A DNA stretch of 5,594 nucleotides from Oscillospiraceae bacterium (GTDB lineage Bacteria > Bacillota_A > Clostridia > Oscillospirales > WRJC01). Both the position numbers and the translations under genes were made by a program. Below are positions 1 through 5,594 of this stretch, one piece after another. The stretch covers positions 1 through 5,594 of the forward strand of contig WQXD01000248.1 in NCBI GenBank assembly GCA_009785015.1, in the 5' to 3' direction. The stretch's first letter is position 1, and the number at the start of each line of letters is the position of its first letter. The notes under the pieces were generated by a model. The model searched no databases. It saw nothing but the letters and a program-made list of their open reading frames with translations, and had not been told where the DNA came from.

Positions 1-379
1 CTTTATTTTTATTTATAAGCTCGCGTTCAAATCGCATATCAAAATTACCCACGCCTACCCGCATATAAATATCATCGACTTCCACTACCTTGTGATTGCT
101 GGCATAACCGCTATACGACACTCTTATGGTATCATCAAGCAGTATGATATTTCGGTCTTTTATTTCAACCATGGTCGCATACGCGCTTAAATTTCCTGTA
201 ACGCATTCATCTAATTCTTGCTTTGTTATTTGCGATTCTAAGTCCTGTTTGTTTATGTATTTTTTGTAATCACAAACATATATCGCCATATCCGGCGCGT
301 AATAAAAAAGCAAAAAAACGGACACGAATACGAGCGCAACCACAAAATACACTATTTTTAATTTTTTATTTTTCATCAT
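1..379 (-). CDS. Membrane-anchored protein of unknown function (partial, C-terminus outside window)
   Basis: The frame is open on the minus strand from an ATG-ATG pair at 379-374 to the window edge (126 codons, no stop). I do not recognise the family. The N-terminus is Lys-rich (MMKNKKLK), followed by a hydrophobic segment at about residues 9-27 (IVYFVVALVFVSVFLLFYY). It lacks a clear signal-peptidase site or lipobox Cys, so a single-pass anchor with the rest outside the cell is likely. Residues about 45-126 look like an acidic, beta-rich soluble domain. The start is modestly supported: a GGTGG stretch lies a few bases upstream and either ATG could be used. It begins 73 nt after the stop of the disrupted protease on the same strand, with no clear terminator between, so co-transcription before the IS insertion is plausible. 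It is unfinished here, so its length cannot be compared with a family. Confidence 0.7.
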   Translation of the reverse strand, partial: MMKNKKLKIVYFVVALVFVSVFLLFYYAPDMAIYVCDYKKYINKQDLESQITKQELDECVTGNLSAYATMVEIKDRNIILLDDTIRVSYSGYASNHKVVEVDDIYMRVGVGNFDMRFERELINKNK

Positions 380-396
380 CAACCACCAACAACCAA

Positions 397-417
397 GGGA
401 GAAATATGACTTCCCCC
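397..417 (-). other. Small hairpin in the protease to membrane-protein intergenic gap
   Basis: GGGAGAA (397-403) and TTCCCCC (411-417) can pair on the minus-strand transcript as a 7-bp stem with one G-U wobble and a 7-nt loop. It lies between the protease stop (455-453) and the next start (379). No uridine run follows, so it does not look like a complete intrinsic terminator. The rest of the 380-452 gap shows nothing I can name. Confidence 0.25.
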
Positions 418-452
418 TCAATTGATTTCAAAAACGATAATTTTTTTGTTTG

Positions 453-1161
453 TCAGAATTCATAATGTGACCATAAAGCACAAATATTGGTTACTTTGAC
501 GTTAAAATAAACCAATCCATTATTTGTTGGAGCTCCAATCGCAATTCCGCAAGTAGCATACCCATCAGAAAATCCTGCGTAAACAGGACTGCCGCAATCA
601 CCATTTGCCATGCTTAGCTCGCTGAAAGTTACCACATCTTTTGTAGTCACATTATTTGTGTCTGTCACATCGTAAGTAACGTATTTAACAGTACCCGATT
701 TTTCCTTTTTGGTAGCTCCGTAATTTGCATATAGTGCCATTCCCACAGAATAACCCGTAACAAAATTGCCCGTCAAGGTTTGAGTTCCAGTCAAATTTCC
801 AGTCCCGGTTACATCACCATATAATAACTTTTGAGAAGTCTTGTCATATGCCGAATCAAACCCTATGAAAGATGCGTCTACTTTACCATTATGTACAAAA
901 CTCCTTCTATAGCACACTCCTATTGCGGTATTACCTACATAAACAACCGTTGGGCTTGAAGATTCATTCTTAGGCGTAAAGGAAGAAAAGTTCCCAAATG
1001 CCCCGCTGTGACAAAACCAAGCACATATTTGCTCGAACTTGCATCATATATACACGTGCCATATCCCATCGTTAATCCAATCATTCCAACTCCGGTGACA
1101 GACATACTTACTACAGTACCTGGTTTGTAATCAGCCATACGATACTTCGGCTCATCGCTTT
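453..1161 (-). pseudogene. 3' part of disrupted secreted S1-like protease: catalytic domain, frameshifted
   Basis: This is the catalytic half of a chymotrypsin-fold extracellular protease, severed from its signal peptide and prodomain (4245-4827) by the IS21 element. In the repaired 430-residue protein the domain runs from about residue 205 to 430. GFVTAGHLG contains the general-base His249 (codon 1000-998), VDASF contains Asp290, and NGDCGSPVY occupies the nucleophile loop with Cys384 (codon 596-594). The spacings of 41 and 94 residues are close to the His57-Asp102-Ser195 spacing of chymotrypsin, so the family call is strong. The fold resembles bacterial alpha-lytic/streptogrisin-like enzymes in the TAGH region. 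The frame is broken between His249 and FSSFTPKN: one base is missing at about 985-997, most simply a G from the GGG at 995-993, restoring H-L-G-N-F-S-S. Two lesions mark it as a pseudogene. Cys in place of Ser is either a real nucleophile swap or further decay. Confidence 0.88.
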
Positions 1162-1166
1162 CTGTT
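1162..1166. repeat. Target-site duplication, left copy (CTGTT)
   Basis: CTGTT directly precedes the TG end of the element and is repeated directly after its CA end at 4245-4249. IS21-family elements typically duplicate 4-8 bp. Deleting the element and one copy restores the protease frame, which independently confirms the boundary. Confidence 0.9.
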
Positions 1167-1239
1167 TGAATACAGCGGAGTAAAACGAGCGTTTGGAGCG
1201 GAGAAATAGTGCGTTTGGAGCGGGGAAGAGTGCAGGGAG
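1167..1239 (+). repeat. IS21 left terminal repeat array (probable IstA binding sites)
   Basis: The outer inverted repeat is at 1167-1191. Inside it are GCGGAGAAATAGTGC at 1198-1212 and a related GCGGGGAAGAGTGCAGGGAG at 1220-1239. The first is identical, in inverted orientation, to 4178-4192 at the right end, and the second shares TGCAGGGAG with the same right-end copy. IS21-type transposases are known to bind several repeated sites near each end. Assigning these motifs to IstA is inference from that and from their symmetric placement. Confidence 0.75.
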
Positions 1240-1368
1240 GAGAAAGCGGTAAAAAAAATCGGAAGTAGTTCCAGCGTAAAACACGGGATCTACGAAAAAT
1301 CACAAAAAATTTGGATAATCGATCGATTTTGAAATGTAAAACATAGGGAAACGGCACATAGGGAAAAA

Positions 1369-1564
1369 CCATAAGCTGGACAGCAAAAAGATAACGAAAT
1401 ATACAGCAAGTCAAAAAAGCGGAGGATTTTAGGTTAAAAAAATCGAACGTGTTCGCAACAGCATAAAAGTGGGGGGGGGAAAAGTGCAAAAATAGGCACA
1501 TTTAAGTAGCGAATATGCCAAAATCAGGCACAAAAAAGGGTAGGCATATGCTGTCCAGCTATGG
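1369..1564. repeat. Widely spaced inverted repeat in the IS leader
   Basis: The arm at 1369-1385 (CCATAAGCTGGACAGCA) and the arm at 1549-1564 (TGCTGTCCAGCTATGG) are inverse complements except for one extra A in the left arm. Twelve bases, 1374-1385 and 1549-1560, match perfectly. The 163-bp interior is noncoding and contains a G9 tract (1471-1479), a small CGAAC/GTTCG dyad (1444-1455), and a TATGCC/GGCATA pair (1514-1519, 1543-1548). The right arm runs into the probable istA -10 region, so it could act as an operator or pair in RNA. The function is unknown. Confidence 0.6.
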
Positions 1565-1570
1565 TACAAT
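1562..1570 (+). promoter_or_regulatory. Probable extended -10 promoter for istAB
   Basis: TGGTACAAT reads as an extended -10 (TG-n-TACAAT, hexamer at 1565-1570), placing the transcription start near 1576-1578, about 46 nt before the istA ATG. No good -35 hexamer lies 16-18 bp upstream, which is tolerable for an extended -10 site. A start here would begin inside the hairpin at 1572-1605, so only transcripts entering from upstream would carry the full stem. Confidence 0.4.
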
Positions 1571-1571
1571 A

Positions 1572-1605
1572 ATAATTATGCACCGGAGACGGTGTAAATA
1601 ATTAT
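1572..1605 (+). promoter_or_regulatory. Leader hairpin with GAGA tetraloop just before the istA ribosome binding site
   Basis: ATAATTAT (1572-1579) pairs with ATAATTAT (1598-1605), and CACCG (1581-1585) pairs with CGGTG (1590-1594). They are separated by a small asymmetric internal loop and closed by a GAGA (GNRA-type) tetraloop at 1586-1589. The stem ends 4 nt before the GGGAGG Shine-Dalgarno sequence (1610-1615), which sits 8 nt from the istA ATG at 1624. It may hinder translation of read-through transcripts, as hairpins do in some other IS elements. It does not itself cover the Shine-Dalgarno sequence. Confidence 0.5.
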
Positions 1606-1623
1606 CATTGGGAGGTCTGCGAA

Positions 1624-3162
1624 ATGACAGACAACCGGGAAATACTGAGGCTGGCGGAAATGGGGCTTAGCCGGACGAGTATAGGGGAAGCGCTGGGATA
1701 CTCGCGAAACACAGTGGCAGAAGTGCTGCGGAGGGCGCAAATGAAAGGGGTGGCATATCCATTGCCGGAGGGTATGGGCGACCGGGAGTTGCGGGACGCA
1801 TTGTATCCGGAGAAGGCGCAGGAGCGAAAGCCGCGGATGCCGGACTGCGAAAAAATCCACAGGGAACTCGGCAAACAGGGAGTGACGCTGACGCTTTTGT
1901 GGGATGAATACTGCGGCGAATGTCGGCAAAACGGGGAAATCCCGTATGCGTTCACGCAATTCCGGCACCATTACCACGAATATGTCAGGACGACGAAAGC
2001 GACGATGCACATCAAGCACAAACCGGGTGAGACGCTGGAGGTGGATTGGGCGGGTCAAACGGCAGGGGTTGTAGACAGGGAGACAGGCGCAGTCACGGCG
2101 GCATATATATATGTGGCGACGTTGCCGTGCAGCGGGTACAGCTATGTGGAGGCGTTTTTGAACCAGAGCCAAAAAAGTTGGACGGACGCGCACATACACG
2201 CATTCGAGCATTTCGGGGGGACGACGCGGATAATCACGCCGGACAATCTGAAGACAGGGGTGGAGAACCCGAGCCGGAAAAACCTGACGATCAACAAGAG
2301 CTACGGCGAGCTGGCGGCACATTACGGCTGCGCGGTGATACCGGCGCGGGTCAGGAAGCCGAGGGACAAAGCGAGCGTGGAAGGGACGGTCGGTGGGATA
2401 TCGACATGGATAATCGCGGCGTTGCGAAACGAAGTGTTTTTTACGCTGGGCGATCTGAACGAGGCGATAGCGGCGAAACTTAAAGCGTTCAACGAGCGGC
2501 CGTTCCAGAAGAAGGAAAGCAATCGGCTGACGGCGTTTTTGGAGGAAGAAAAAGACTATCTGCAGCCGTTGCCGAAGAGCCGGTACGAGGTTTCGGAATG
2601 GAAAAAGCTGACGCCAGGGTTCAACTACCACATAGAGGTGGACAAAAATCATTACAGCGTGCCGTATGAATACATCGGGCACGAAATGGACGTGAGGGTG
2701 ACAAACAACGTGGTGGAAGTGTTCTACGGAAGCCTCCGCGTGTGTTCGCACCCGAAGCTGAACGGGAAACCGGGGCAGTACCGCACGATGCCCGAGCATA
2801 TGCCGGAAAAACACAGGGAATATACCCAATGGAACGCGGAACGATTCTTGAGTTGGGCGGCAAGCATAGGCGAAAACACGAAAACAGTCATAGGGTCGAT
2901 TTTGTCCTCCCACAAAATCGAGCAACAGGGGTACCGGGCATGCATGGGCGTTTTGAAACTGGCAGACAGATACGGAGCCCAAAGGCTGGAAGCGGCCTGC
3001 GAAAAGGCTCTGTCGTACACGCCAAGCCCGAGCTACAAAAATGTCGACGCGATACTCTCCTCCGGCGGGGACAGGACGGAGGCGCAACAGCCAAAAACAA
3101 AAGTCTTCGATGAAGTGCATTCGTTTATCCGCGGAGCGGAATACTACGGGAGGAAAAAATGA
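1624..3162 (+). CDS. istA: IS21-family transposase IstA
   Basis: The 512-residue DDE transposase carries out DNA cleavage and strand transfer of the element together with IstB. Residues about 5-40 form a helix-turn-helix (LAEMGLSRTSIGEALGYSRN), as in IstA N-termini that bind the terminal repeats. The RNase-H-like catalytic core follows: the first Asp is D141 in LEVDWAGQT, the second D207 in ITPDNLKTG, and the Glu E253 in PRDKASVEGTVG, with the family-typical 46-residue spacing between the last two. The C-terminal part (about 330-400) holds the FNYHIEVDKNHYSVPYEYIG beta-domain typical of the family. Length is at the long end of the usual 390-515 residues and nothing is truncated. The start is supported by GGGAGG 8 nt upstream. 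Its stop overlaps the istB start (ATGA), implying translational coupling. Large opposite-strand open frames across it are GC-driven shadows. Confidence 0.97.
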   Translation: MTDNREILRLAEMGLSRTSIGEALGYSRNTVAEVLRRAQMKGVAYPLPEGMGDRELRDALYPEKAQERKPRMPDCEKIHRELGKQGVTLTLLWDEYCGECRQNGEIPYAFTQFRHHYHEYVRTTKATMHIKHKPGETLEVDWAGQTAGVVDRETGAVTAAYIYVATLPCSGYSYVEAFLNQSQKSWTDAHIHAFEHFGGTTRIITPDNLKTGVENPSRKNLTINKSYGELAAHYGCAVIPARVRKPRDKASVEGTVGGISTWIIAALRNEVFFTLGDLNEAIAAKLKAFNERPFQKKESNRLTAFLEEEKDYLQPLPKSRYEVSEWKKLTPGFNYHIEVDKNHYSVPYEYIGHEMDVRVTNNVVEVFYGSLRVCSHPKLNGKPGQYRTMPEHMPEKHREYTQWNAERFLSWAASIGENTKTVIGSILSSHKIEQQGYRACMGVLKLADRYGAQRLEAACEKALSYTPSPSYKNVDAILSSGGDRTEAQQPKTKVFDEVHSFIRGAEYYGRKK

Positions 3163-3905
3163 TGCTGAACGAACAAACCGTAGAGAAGCTGATAGAGCTC
3201 CACCTCCGCCCGATGGCGAAAGAATTCAGGGAACAGCATGAAAACCCTGCCATATCCGGGCTGTCCTTCGAGGACAGGTTCGGTCTGATTGTCGACCGCC
3301 AATGGGCGGACAGGAAAAACGCACACATTTCACGGCTGATCAAGTCGGCGACATTCAAGTTTCCCAACGCCTGCGTGGAAAATATCGCCTACCACGCCGA
3401 CCGCAAGCTCGACAAGGAACAAATTTTGCGGCTTTCCACTGGCAAATACATCAAAGGCAACAACAACATCATCGTCATGGGCGCGGCCGGAGCCGGCAAA
3501 AGTTACATCGGCTGTGCGCTCGGAATCTCGGCCTGCCGCCAGTTGGTCAAGACCAAATACATTCGCCTGCCGGAAATCCTTGAAGATCTACATATCGCCA
3601 GAGGTGAGGGCACTTACAAAAAAACGCTGGCCGCATACAAATCCTACCAACTCCTCATCTTTGACGAGTGGCTACTGACTCCGTTGACTGACGCTCAAAC
3701 CTCCGATTTGTTCGAAATCATCGAATCACGCTACGGCGAACGCTCCACCATTTTCATCGCCCAGTCCGCCCCCGCTGGCTGGTACCAGATGATCGGCGAA
3801 AGCCGCATAACCGATGCCATCCTTGACCGCATCGTCCACAATTCCCATAATATCTTGATCGAAAGCACAATTTCCATGCGCGAACGCATCGGCCTGTCCG
3901 ACTAA
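3159..3905 (+). CDS. istB: IS21-family helper ATPase IstB
   Basis: The 248-residue AAA+ ATPase of the DnaC/IstB type assembles on DNA, selects and remodels the target and stimulates IstA. The N-terminal helical region spans residues 1 to about 95. Walker A is GAAGAGKS (108-115), with K114 contacting phosphate. Walker B is LLIFDEW, with D169 and E170 for Mg2+ and catalysis. A sensor-like IFIAQSAP segment is at 198-205 and the family signature ITDAILDRIVHNSHNI at 217-232. Length matches the usual 240-265. The start is ATG at 3159, inside the istA stop, preceded by GGGAGGAAAA within the istA 3' end. A second in-frame ATG follows immediately at 3162 and could also serve. No frameshift or lost motif is visible, so the transposition machinery appears intact. 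Confidence 0.96.
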   Translation: MMLNEQTVEKLIELHLRPMAKEFREQHENPAISGLSFEDRFGLIVDRQWADRKNAHISRLIKSATFKFPNACVENIAYHADRKLDKEQILRLSTGKYIKGNNNIIVMGAAGAGKSYIGCALGISACRQLVKTKYIRLPEILEDLHIARGEGTYKKTLAAYKSYQLLIFDEWLLTPLTDAQTSDLFEIIESRYGERSTIFIAQSAPAGWYQMIGESRITDAILDRIVHNSHNILIESTISMRERIGLSD

Positions 3906-3922
3906 CTACTCCTCTCGTTTTT

Positions 3923-3944
3923 GCGCCTGCGGCGCTGAGTTTTT
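3923..3944 (+). terminator. Probable intrinsic terminator of istAB
   Basis: GCGCC (3923-3927), loop TGC, GGCGC (3931-3935), then TGAG and five T residues (3940-3944), 18 nt after the istB stop. The stem is short but all G-C. The T run starts four bases after the stem, so termination may be incomplete. Confidence 0.4.
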
Positions 3945-3957
3945 CGCTTTGGTTTTC

Positions 3958-4081
3958 CAAGGAGAGTGATTGTTTCCCCTCATCCTACTAAAAGAGCAAT
4001 ACCCTGCGGTATCACTCTCCTTGCCAAACCTCATCTGGCGCTCAGGTTGCTCTCCAGCATTGCCCTATCCTCCGCGATGAG
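3958..4081 (+). other. Structured noncoding stretch in the IS 3' end
   Basis: A perfect 13-bp inverted repeat, CAAGGAGAGTGAT (3958-3970) and ATCACTCTCCTTG (4011-4023), encloses 40 nt that include a small ATACC-CTGC-GGTAT hairpin (3999-4012). Further complementary pairs reach outward: AGAGCAA (3993-3999) with TTGCTCT (4047-4053), and CTCATC (3979-3984) with GATGAG (4076-4081). These pairings are partly mutually exclusive. No convincing reading frame covers the stretch. It could be a 3' UTR structure, a small RNA, or a tiny 66-bp inverted-repeat insertion nested in the element. Confidence 0.5.
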
Positions 4082-4134
4082 TAAAAGCATTTATTATGGT
4101 ACCACTTTTTGACTTCTTTTTCAACCCTTTTGCT

Positions 4135-4244
4135 GCACTATTTCCCGCTCTTGCCGCTCTTTTTGACCGCGCTCCCTGCACTATTTCTCCGCTATCCTCG
4201 CACTTTTTTCCCGATTTGCCCGCTCTTTTTGACCGCTATATTCA
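4135..4244 (-). repeat. IS21 right terminal repeat array (probable IstA binding sites)
   Basis: Read inward from 4244 on the minus strand: the terminal TGAATATAGCGG, then two perfect 17-bp copies of GCGGTCAAAAAGAGCGG (4220-4236 and 4154-4170, 66 bp apart). These alternate with three AGTGC-type boxes: 4200-4214 (TCGGGAAAAAAGTGC), 4178-4192 (GCGGAGAAATAGTGC, identical to the left-end box) and 4135-4148 (GCGGGAAATAGTGC). The alternating A-B-B-A-B order suggests duplicated transposase sites, more copies than at the left end. Confidence 0.75.
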
Positions 4245-4249
4245 CTGTT
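4245..4249. repeat. Target-site duplication, right copy (CTGTT)
   Basis: Directly follows the CA end of the element and matches 1162-1166. On the minus strand it is the AACAG spanning the Glu-Thr codons of the protease at the insertion point. Confidence 0.9.
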
Positions 4250-4827
4250 TCTTCGCCAAATATTTCTTTTTCCATCTGTTCAAACTTCACGTAAGGCGCA
4301 TCCATGATATAATTTTTGAATAAACTTACTGTTTCATCATAGTTCGAGTCCGAAGAAAAACATATAATTACACAGTTAGAAACAATATCAACACCTACAC
4401 CAAAAATATTGCTATGCAATTCTTTTAGCGCAGGATTATCGTCGCTCTCTTCGTAAAGTTCGAACTTTCTGTCGCTTATGTAGTCTTTGACCTCCACCAA
4501 AAAATTTTCGGAGTATTCGACTTGCGTGACCTTGAAATTGTCATTCCCCGTGACCCTTATTATGTCGTCCCTGATTTCGTCCGGGGCGCAGGTGACGAAT
4601 ATCTCCATGTTACTGTAATCATCAATTACAGCTCCGCCGGCCCAAAAATCGGGCAGAGAACCATCTTCGGTCAAAGAGCATACATAGTTGTACAACGCCG
4701 CCCATTGGCTGTTTATTATCGCCTCCTGTGAAACTGAGACTTCATCCGCGCTGATAACTGCCGGAAAACTTGTATTCACGGTAAAAAGAGTTGCCGCAAG
4801 GACGACGATTGCAAATACTTTTTTCAT
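4245..4827 (-). pseudogene. 5' part of disrupted secreted S1-like protease: signal peptide and prodomain
   Basis: This is the N-terminal 194 residues of the interrupted protease. The start is the ATG at 4827, because GGAGG lies 8 nt upstream. An earlier in-frame ATG at 4845 would place that ribosome site inside the gene. Residues 1-27 form a Sec signal peptide (MKKVFAIVVLAATLF then ...VISA, cleavage near DEVSV). Residues about 28-200 are acidic, with segments such as LPDFWAGGAVID and a repeating alpha/beta character that fit the intramolecular-chaperone prodomain of alpha-lytic/streptogrisin-like proteases. This prodomain call is inference. At residue 194 the reading enters IS sequence and stops after 18 further foreign codons at 4192. 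If still expressed it would give a secreted prodomain with no enzyme. The missing half is at 453-1161 and joins in frame on excision. Confidence 0.85.
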
Positions 4828-5047
4828 AATGATTTCCTCCTTCAATAATCTGTTTTAAAATTTTATTTAAACCCAATGCATACCGAACTGTAATCATTAT
4901 GATATAAACTTATTATGACTTATTATGACTTATTATGACTTATTATGACTTATTATGACTTATTATGAACAATTTGGAAATTTTACACATTATCATCTTA
5001 AATTTCATTATAAAGACTCGACCATCGCTTAAAAATGAATATGATGA
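4828..5047 (-). promoter_or_regulatory. AT-rich upstream region of the protease gene
   Basis: No coding frame is convincing here. A strong GGAGG ribosome site is at 4836-4840, read on the minus strand. A weak promoter-like pair on the minus strand is TTACAG (4893-4888) and TTAAAT (4870-4865) with 17-bp spacing. The match to consensus is poor, so confidence is low. The tandem 10-bp repeats lie just upstream of it. Confidence 0.3.
4909..4968. repeat. Six perfect tandem copies of a 10-bp unit (CTTATTATGA)
   Basis: Units start at 4909, 4919, 4929, 4939, 4949 and 4959 with no mismatch. On the protease-coding strand the unit reads TCATAATAAG and contains the -10-like CATAAT in every copy. The 10-bp period nearly matches the DNA helical turn, so a bound protein would see each copy on about the same face. 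The array ends about 80 bp upstream of the protease start codon. Confidence 0.95.
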
Positions 5048-5218
5048 TATTTGGTGTCGGGCATGACGAGTAGGGCGTGGCTCGGTTCGCTTCCCTGCGC
5101 GGTACTCACGGAGATTATCGGGGCGATTGTCCGGGAAGTGATAAACGCTATGGATTCAACGCCGTTTTCGCGCTGTCTGAACGGCTTTATCTGTAACGCC
5201 GAAAACCGAACAGCCTGA
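5048..5218 (+). other. Unrecognised short open frame, possibly remnant
   Basis: The frame is open from after a TGA at 5045-5047 to TGA at 5216-5218, with an ATG at 5063 giving 51 residues. The middle, LTEIIGAIVREVINAM, would be an amphipathic helix, followed by DSTPFSRCLNGF. There is no ribosome binding site, the opposite strand is also largely open, and I do not recognise the family. The stretch is more GC-rich than the DNA to its left. It may be the tail of a mobile-element gene or not coding at all. It overlaps the TnpW-like frame that follows. Confidence 0.25.
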
Positions 5219-5345
5219 CCTTGTGAAGCGTATCGGCAAAACGACCTATTGGATTAAAATCCATTTCAACCCGAACAGCAGAGAAACTATGAGCGACAAG
5301 ATTATCCGTATGCTACAAAACGAAGTCAACCAAATGAAAAACTGA
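5181..5345 (+). CDS. TnpW-like small transposon-encoded protein (start uncertain)
   Basis: The frame opens after a TGA at 5178-5180 and ends at TGA 5343-5345 (54 codons). Residues from TEQPDLVKRIGKTTYW through IKIHFNPNSRETMSDKIIRM and LQNEVNQMKN resemble the TnpW family, short proteins of about 40-65 residues encoded on clostridial transposons and conjugative elements, whose function is not established. Recognition rests on the IGKTTY, HF and SRETMSDKI pattern and is from memory. No ATG lies in the frame before the conserved part. A GTG at 5223 would remove the TEQPDL lead-in, so either a non-standard start is used or the 5' end has been lost or frameshifted from the preceding frame. It ends 3 nt from the convergent Rpn-like gene. 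Confidence 0.5.
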   Translation, partial: TALSVTPKTEQPDLVKRIGKTTYWIKIHFNPNSRETMSDKIIRMLQNEVNQMKN

Positions 5346-5348
5346 TGA

Positions 5349-5594
5349 TTACTTTTTTTCGAGTTGTGCGCGCAGTTCAGCTATGATTGCGTCTTTGTCT
5401 GCAACCACGCCCTGCCATTTTTCGCGTTCCTTGCGTTCGGCGTTAGCTAACGCAGAGGCTTCATTATGCCGAGCGTCAGCCCGCAGTCGCTCTAATTCAC
5501 GAAATTCCGCCGACACCATTACTTCGCGGTATGCGCCGATTGCCTGTGTCACGATAGCCACCTCCAATGCTTCGAGTTGTTTTAGTTCTTCTTC
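5349..5594 (-). CDS. C-terminal tail of an Rpn/PD-(D/E)XK transposase-nuclease family protein (partial)
   Basis: The frame is open from the window edge to a TAA at 5351-5349 (81 codons), so the 5' part lies outside. The sequence is highly charged and helical. AYREVMVSAEFRELERLRAD and ARHNEASAL, followed by EKWQGVVADKDAIIAELRAQ, is the pattern seen at the C-terminus of Rpn-family (recombination-promoting nuclease/putative transposase) proteins in gut Firmicutes and Bacteroidetes. The last 35 residues form a probable coiled coil. The catalytic PD-(D/E)XK domain is not in view, so intactness cannot be judged. The TTG at 5567 is not a real start, because the frame continues upstream without a stop. 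Confidence 0.7.
   Translation of the reverse strand, partial: EEELKQLEALEVAIVTQAIGAYREVMVSAEFRELERLRADARHNEASALANAERKEREKWQGVVADKDAIIAELRAQLEKK

Follow-up and report, generated by a model that had tools for sequence, protein, structure and literature searches.

IS21-family elements, for which IS5376 is the model in PMC10122671 and PMC11208146, carry istA followed by istB between CA-ending, repeat-bearing termini. According to the passages cited from PMC10122671 and PMC11208146, each end contains at least two repeats and terminates in CA, numerous members generate 5-bp direct repeats, and target specificity is not strong. The streptogrisins, alpha-lytic protease and the Nocardiopsis protease (1sgd, 1p01, 2oua) possess a prodomain and a chymotrypsin-type domain with catalytic His and Asp and a GD-G motif. 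Here, we analyzed a stretch of 5,594 nucleotides of an Oscillospiraceae bacterium (contig WQXD01000248.1; the window), in which an element of the first kind interrupts a gene of the second kind. The element shares gene order, type of termini and 5-bp direct repeats with the IS21 family as far as covered by the cited passages, and differs from it by an IstA that is at most 74% identical to the relatives found and by an extra conserved stem after istB. The interrupted gene shares the prodomain, the chymotrypsin-type domain, His, Asp and the GD-G motif with the proteases mentioned; in contrast to them, its nucleophile Ser is replaced by Cys, its reading frame is shifted and the element divides it in two.

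The coordinates of all features are summarized in Table 1. The element, its ends and the duplication flanking it are directly visible in the window. A previous interpretation of the same DNA made from the letters alone, termed here the sequence-only reading, had assigned the element to IS21 and placed its ends to the base, and both assignments were confirmed. Genes for an IstA-type transposase and an IstB ATPase follow each other in this order with a 4-base overlap, and both score above their NCBIfam cut-offs. The termini TGAATA and TATTCA form CA-ending inverted repeats with at least two repeats per end, a feature described for the family in the cited passages of PMC10122671 and PMC11208146. 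A related element (L001) has identical terminal letters and its own, different flanking repeat ATATCG, so that both ends are fixed independently. The duplication CTGTT, also proposed before, was recovered when the flanks were compared at lengths 2 to 11, with a match at length 5 only; a short target duplication is among the family features in the passage cited. As the two copies are identical and istA and istB are both whole, the insertion was probably a fairly recent one.

Table 1. Features of the interrupted gene and of the inserted element, in window positions.
Feature	Position	Strand	Basis
Protease gene, N part: hydrophobic N-terminus and prodomain-like domain	4250..4827	-	
Start of catalytic domain, up to catalytic His (codon 998-1000)	998..1161	-	
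Stretch of the -1 reading-frame change	944..997	-	
Remaining catalytic domain, read in the new frame up to the stop; Asp codon at 876-878	453..1001	-	
Cys codon at the nucleophile Ser position (GDCGSP)	594..596	-	
IS21-family insertion sequence, TGAATA...TATTCA	1167..4244	+	ends and NCBIfam/profile matches
Target duplication CTGTT, left copy	1162..1166	.	
Target duplication CTGTT, right copy	4245..4249	.	
Left-end repeats, ~2.4 copies of a 22-bp unit	1174..1227	.	
Right-end repeats, ~4.2 copies of a 22-bp unit, 67% matches	4145..4237	.	
istA, 512 aa, whole	1624..3162	+	NF033546, 243 bits (cut-off 160)
istB, 248 aa, whole	3159..3905	+	NF038214, 211.3 bits (cut-off 200)
Conserved stem after istB	3951..4030	+	folding and covariation

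The interrupted minus-strand gene extends over 453-4827. Joining its pieces of 583 nt (4827-4245) and 709 nt (1161-453) yields 1292 nt compared to 1293, and our arithmetic agrees with the sequence-only reading in that the joined gene is one base short. The separate frameshift to which the missing base had been ascribed was located between the His codon and about position 944. Outside the insertion and the frameshift, both gene parts are free of stops. The phase agrees across the insertion site, with 1 base over on one side and 2 on the other, for which the chance is 1 in 3. Since excising an insertion together with one duplication copy restores the older sequence by definition, this frame argument alone is weak.

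The assignment of both flanks to one gene rests mainly on a single family profile matching both sides. Alignment A3 was composed of eight uninterrupted two-domain proteins of ~400 residues each and contains no letter of the window. Matched separately to the A3 profile, the N piece reached 45.2 bits and the C piece reached 45.8 bits, whereas none of 3000 shuffled pieces (1000 for each of three) exceeded 8.8 bits; P0003, a piece of 52 residues, did not appear in the matches listed. With these scores the claim of one protease gene split by IS21 was borne out. On a profile of 55 proteins, the pieces followed one another in order and with zero overlap: the N piece at 3-196 with 72.9 bits, the piece ending at the His (P0003 plus two residues) at 202-241 with 17.6 bits (without shuffle control), and the C piece at 249-393 with 54.7 bits. 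The distance from a conserved Gly of the prodomain to the His amounts to 75-124 residues in the 55 relatives and to 106 in the window when the pieces are added up. From this spacing and the order of the pieces it follows that the insertion sits in the variable linker of the family, at the prodomain/catalytic junction named before. The possibility that the halves belong to two unrelated proteins was checked as well: uninterrupted relatives hold both in one frame, with the reservation that the N domain also occurs without a protease. We regard the common family of the halves and the linker position as shown.

Profile A2, with 10 rows of which two are window pieces, matched the Nocardiopsis protease 2oua (1.2e-12), streptogrisin B and alpha-lytic protease. 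Among the 10 A2 members, Pfam at E <= 0.1 recognized Trypsin in 3 and Pro_Al_protease in 1 (E 0.012). Judged by sequence profile alone, the catalytic domain is of the chymotrypsin type; it is preceded by a prodomain, as the N piece matches the family profile. His and Asp are present in the window, and the nucleophile Ser of streptogrisin/alpha-lytic-type proteases is replaced by Cys. By these comparisons the gene family is classified as streptogrisin/alpha-lytic-type protease with a prodomain. Its product is predicted to be secreted, in agreement with the earlier designation as a secreted-type protease; a hydrophobic N-terminus is visible. A counterpart of the uncharacterized two-domain kind is P0005 (396 aa, “hypothetical protein,” Ruminococcaceae bacterium), which holds both domains of the window gene in a single open frame. 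It differs from the window gene in being uninterrupted and in having the Ser nucleophile, and is only distantly similar (local matches ~22-30%).

Relatives of the protease were found at considerable distance. For the gene pieces searched apart, Pfam gave no match and NCBIfam nothing near any cut-off. An NF001958 match (E 0.0031, 16 bits versus a cut-off of 1055) was set aside, as were weak, uninformative matches to phrog_28898 and phrog_14743, both families of unknown function. The post-frameshift piece found only the window's own ORF among proteins of 0.55-1.75x its length, and no match among proteins of length near 430. Scans of viral contigs (including one with IstA) and genome contigs, and phage searches by protein and by DNA, yielded zero relatives. 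Using the N piece with a threshold of E <= 0.01, 9 of 295 genomes were matched (ten places, eight loci), of which loci L018-L023 were examined and L024 and L025 left out. In L020 and L023, the same reading frame leads on from the N domain into a domain that contains His, Asp and GDSGG. An N domain without protease was observed before SLH repeats in L018, and alone in L019, L021 and L022. Weak matches in the 295 genomes at L016 and L017 were rejected, as the proteins were without protease motif. The L023 protein as query gave matches in 13 of 295 genomes (16 places); ten further loci were examined, while L037 was without ORF by the filter and L045 was left out. A protein search with A2 scored 7996 candidates, of which 56, including the window's own ORF, passed E 0.001. 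The 55-protein set comprises 47 of the proteins (P0005-P0051) and eight locus proteins, with the eight weakest (P0052-P0059) dropped; its members are not all independent, P0005 being the same as L034. Over long stretches the closest relatives are ~22-30% identical to the window pieces, and at this distance neither a close orthologue nor an empty-site allele was found in the 295 genomes and the protein search. The protease relatives occur in the same order as the Oscillospiraceae MAG with the nearest IstA.

At the nucleophile position, all 54 alignable relatives carry Ser (one of the 55 is truncated) versus Cys in the window. The catalytic His is found in 55 of 55 and the Asp in 54 of 54 relatives, and the window has kept both. 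The frameshift and the Cys, both plainly present, are known from one assembled sequence. As it carries at least one further lesion in addition to the insertion, the window gene is a pseudogene, and it has presumably lost its function. As both sides are otherwise stop-free, its decay appears to be young. The claim that the gene had been uninterrupted until this insertion could not be upheld: with frameshift and Cys present and neither datable against the insertion, the gene may have failed before the element arrived. That it was already a pseudogene, through the frameshift and/or the loss of Ser, and that the insertion was neutral, we consider a serious possibility at slightly below even chances. 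This order of events is compatible with our overall explanation. It is favored by the Ser of all alignable relatives and by the observation, in the passage cited from PMC6642262, that a Ser-to-Cys exchange generally broke the activity of hydrolases; however, the stop-free gene parts indicate that any such decay was young, and a single sequence gives no order of events.

It is unlikely that the frameshift arose in sequencing or assembly while the Cys is genuine, which would make the insertion the sole inactivating event. A single assembled sequence as source leaves room for such an error, but the stretch is without a long run of one base. Moreover, the 154-aa post-frameshift ORF belongs to a protein cluster with 3 members and a 1606-base contig distinct from the window, which suggests, without proof, that the ORF was seen elsewhere and hints at a frameshift outside this assembly too. 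In a relative, L036 (around 2154; the same gene in L047), a -1 frame change was observed three codons past the catalytic His, near the site of the window; it is either a real lesion or an assembly error. A reading in which the gene works by programmed -1 frameshifting could appeal to this position in L036 and to a run of the X XXY YYZ type within the stretch of the window, but is very improbable: L036 is without such a run, the remaining two-domain relatives examined read in one frame, and by a rough estimate such a run is not rare in an overlap of this size. Repeated elements are a frequent cause of misassembly, yet a false joining of flanks that were never one gene is hardly credible next to the exact 5-bp duplication, the agreeing phase and the match of the flanks to successive parts of one protein family.

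We therefore hold with high confidence that an IS21 element inserted with a 5-bp duplication into a prodomain-protease gene of the streptogrisin/alpha-lytic kind, that it split the gene in the linker, and that the gene is also frameshifted with its Ser changed to Cys. In this explanation, IstA and IstB would have inserted the element via a 5-bp staggered cut. The target was the gene for a prodomain protease that is predicted to be secreted, and the element cut it in two within the variable linker that connects its two domains. The TnpW match at 5199-5342, the Oscillospiraceae MAG with the nearest IstA and the protease relatives in that order suggest that the host was a gut bacterium of the Clostridia, probably an uncultured one.

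Folding of segment 3935-4060 gave a z of -3.75 for the region of the stem after istB. The stem was also found in L001, L002, L006, L050 and L051, 33-57 bases 3' of istB. The six-element alignment has 17 pairs, of which 5 changed on both sides, and 99.0% of cells are paired. Its covariation score was 0.337 versus 0.203 in shuffles (0/500 as high) and at most 0.106 for a slid alignment, while further pair types were not above shuffles (485/500 as high). The six stems are not independent: the model that detected L050 and L051 was built from the remaining four, and Desulfosporosinus is the source of both L002 and L006. At E <= 0.01, matches to the stem model R1 were obtained in 6 of the 295 genomes: in G001 itself, in two where the match adjoins istB and in three where it does not. 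Dropped from the six-element count were the R1 matches L052, L053 and L054, with no istB-like ORF adjoining, and L003 with a weak R1 match after istB (19.7 bits). In L004, L005 and L009, an istB-like ORF is present and an R1 match absent. An Rfam search of the window gave zero matches, stem included. Judged by titles, none of the papers listed on hairpins after istB in the IS21 family treats such a stem, and the passages cited from PMC10122671 and PMC11208146 name none among the components of IS21. That the conserved long stem of this IS21 subgroup has a structural role in transposition or in its control, be it as RNA or as DNA, is, in our judgment, an evenly balanced proposition.

The 15 genome loci found included the nearest IstA, 74% identical, in L001 of an Oscillospiraceae MAG. 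In plasmids, the element DNA matched 7 records, none across >80% of its length, and IstA matched 4537 records, every one at <60% identity. Upstream of the protease gene, at 5199-5342 (+), lies a match to the transposon-encoded protein TnpW (PF14202, 55.4 bits), which is tied to clostridial mobile elements. Two frames, 2-421 (-) and 5349-5594 (-), are open at the window ends and without convincing family; the first encodes a protein of 140 aa that looks membrane-anchored, the second a charged end of 81 aa resembling a coiled coil. At 4908-4968, some 80-140 bases before the start codon of the protease gene, ACTTATTATG is repeated in 6.1 perfect copies. This repeat is overlapped by promoter-like matches, of which region 4780-5200 holds 7 versus 1.6 in shuffles, and it is possibly a slippage-prone control region.

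As an event, the insertion is ordinary, and two oddities are worth keeping. A protease copy with Cys at the nucleophile position is open to follow-up, and the covarying stem within an IS21 subgroup offers a lead of the same kind. The prodomain proteases form a little-annotated family, found largely in uncultured bacteria, and Pfam recognizes only part of its members.
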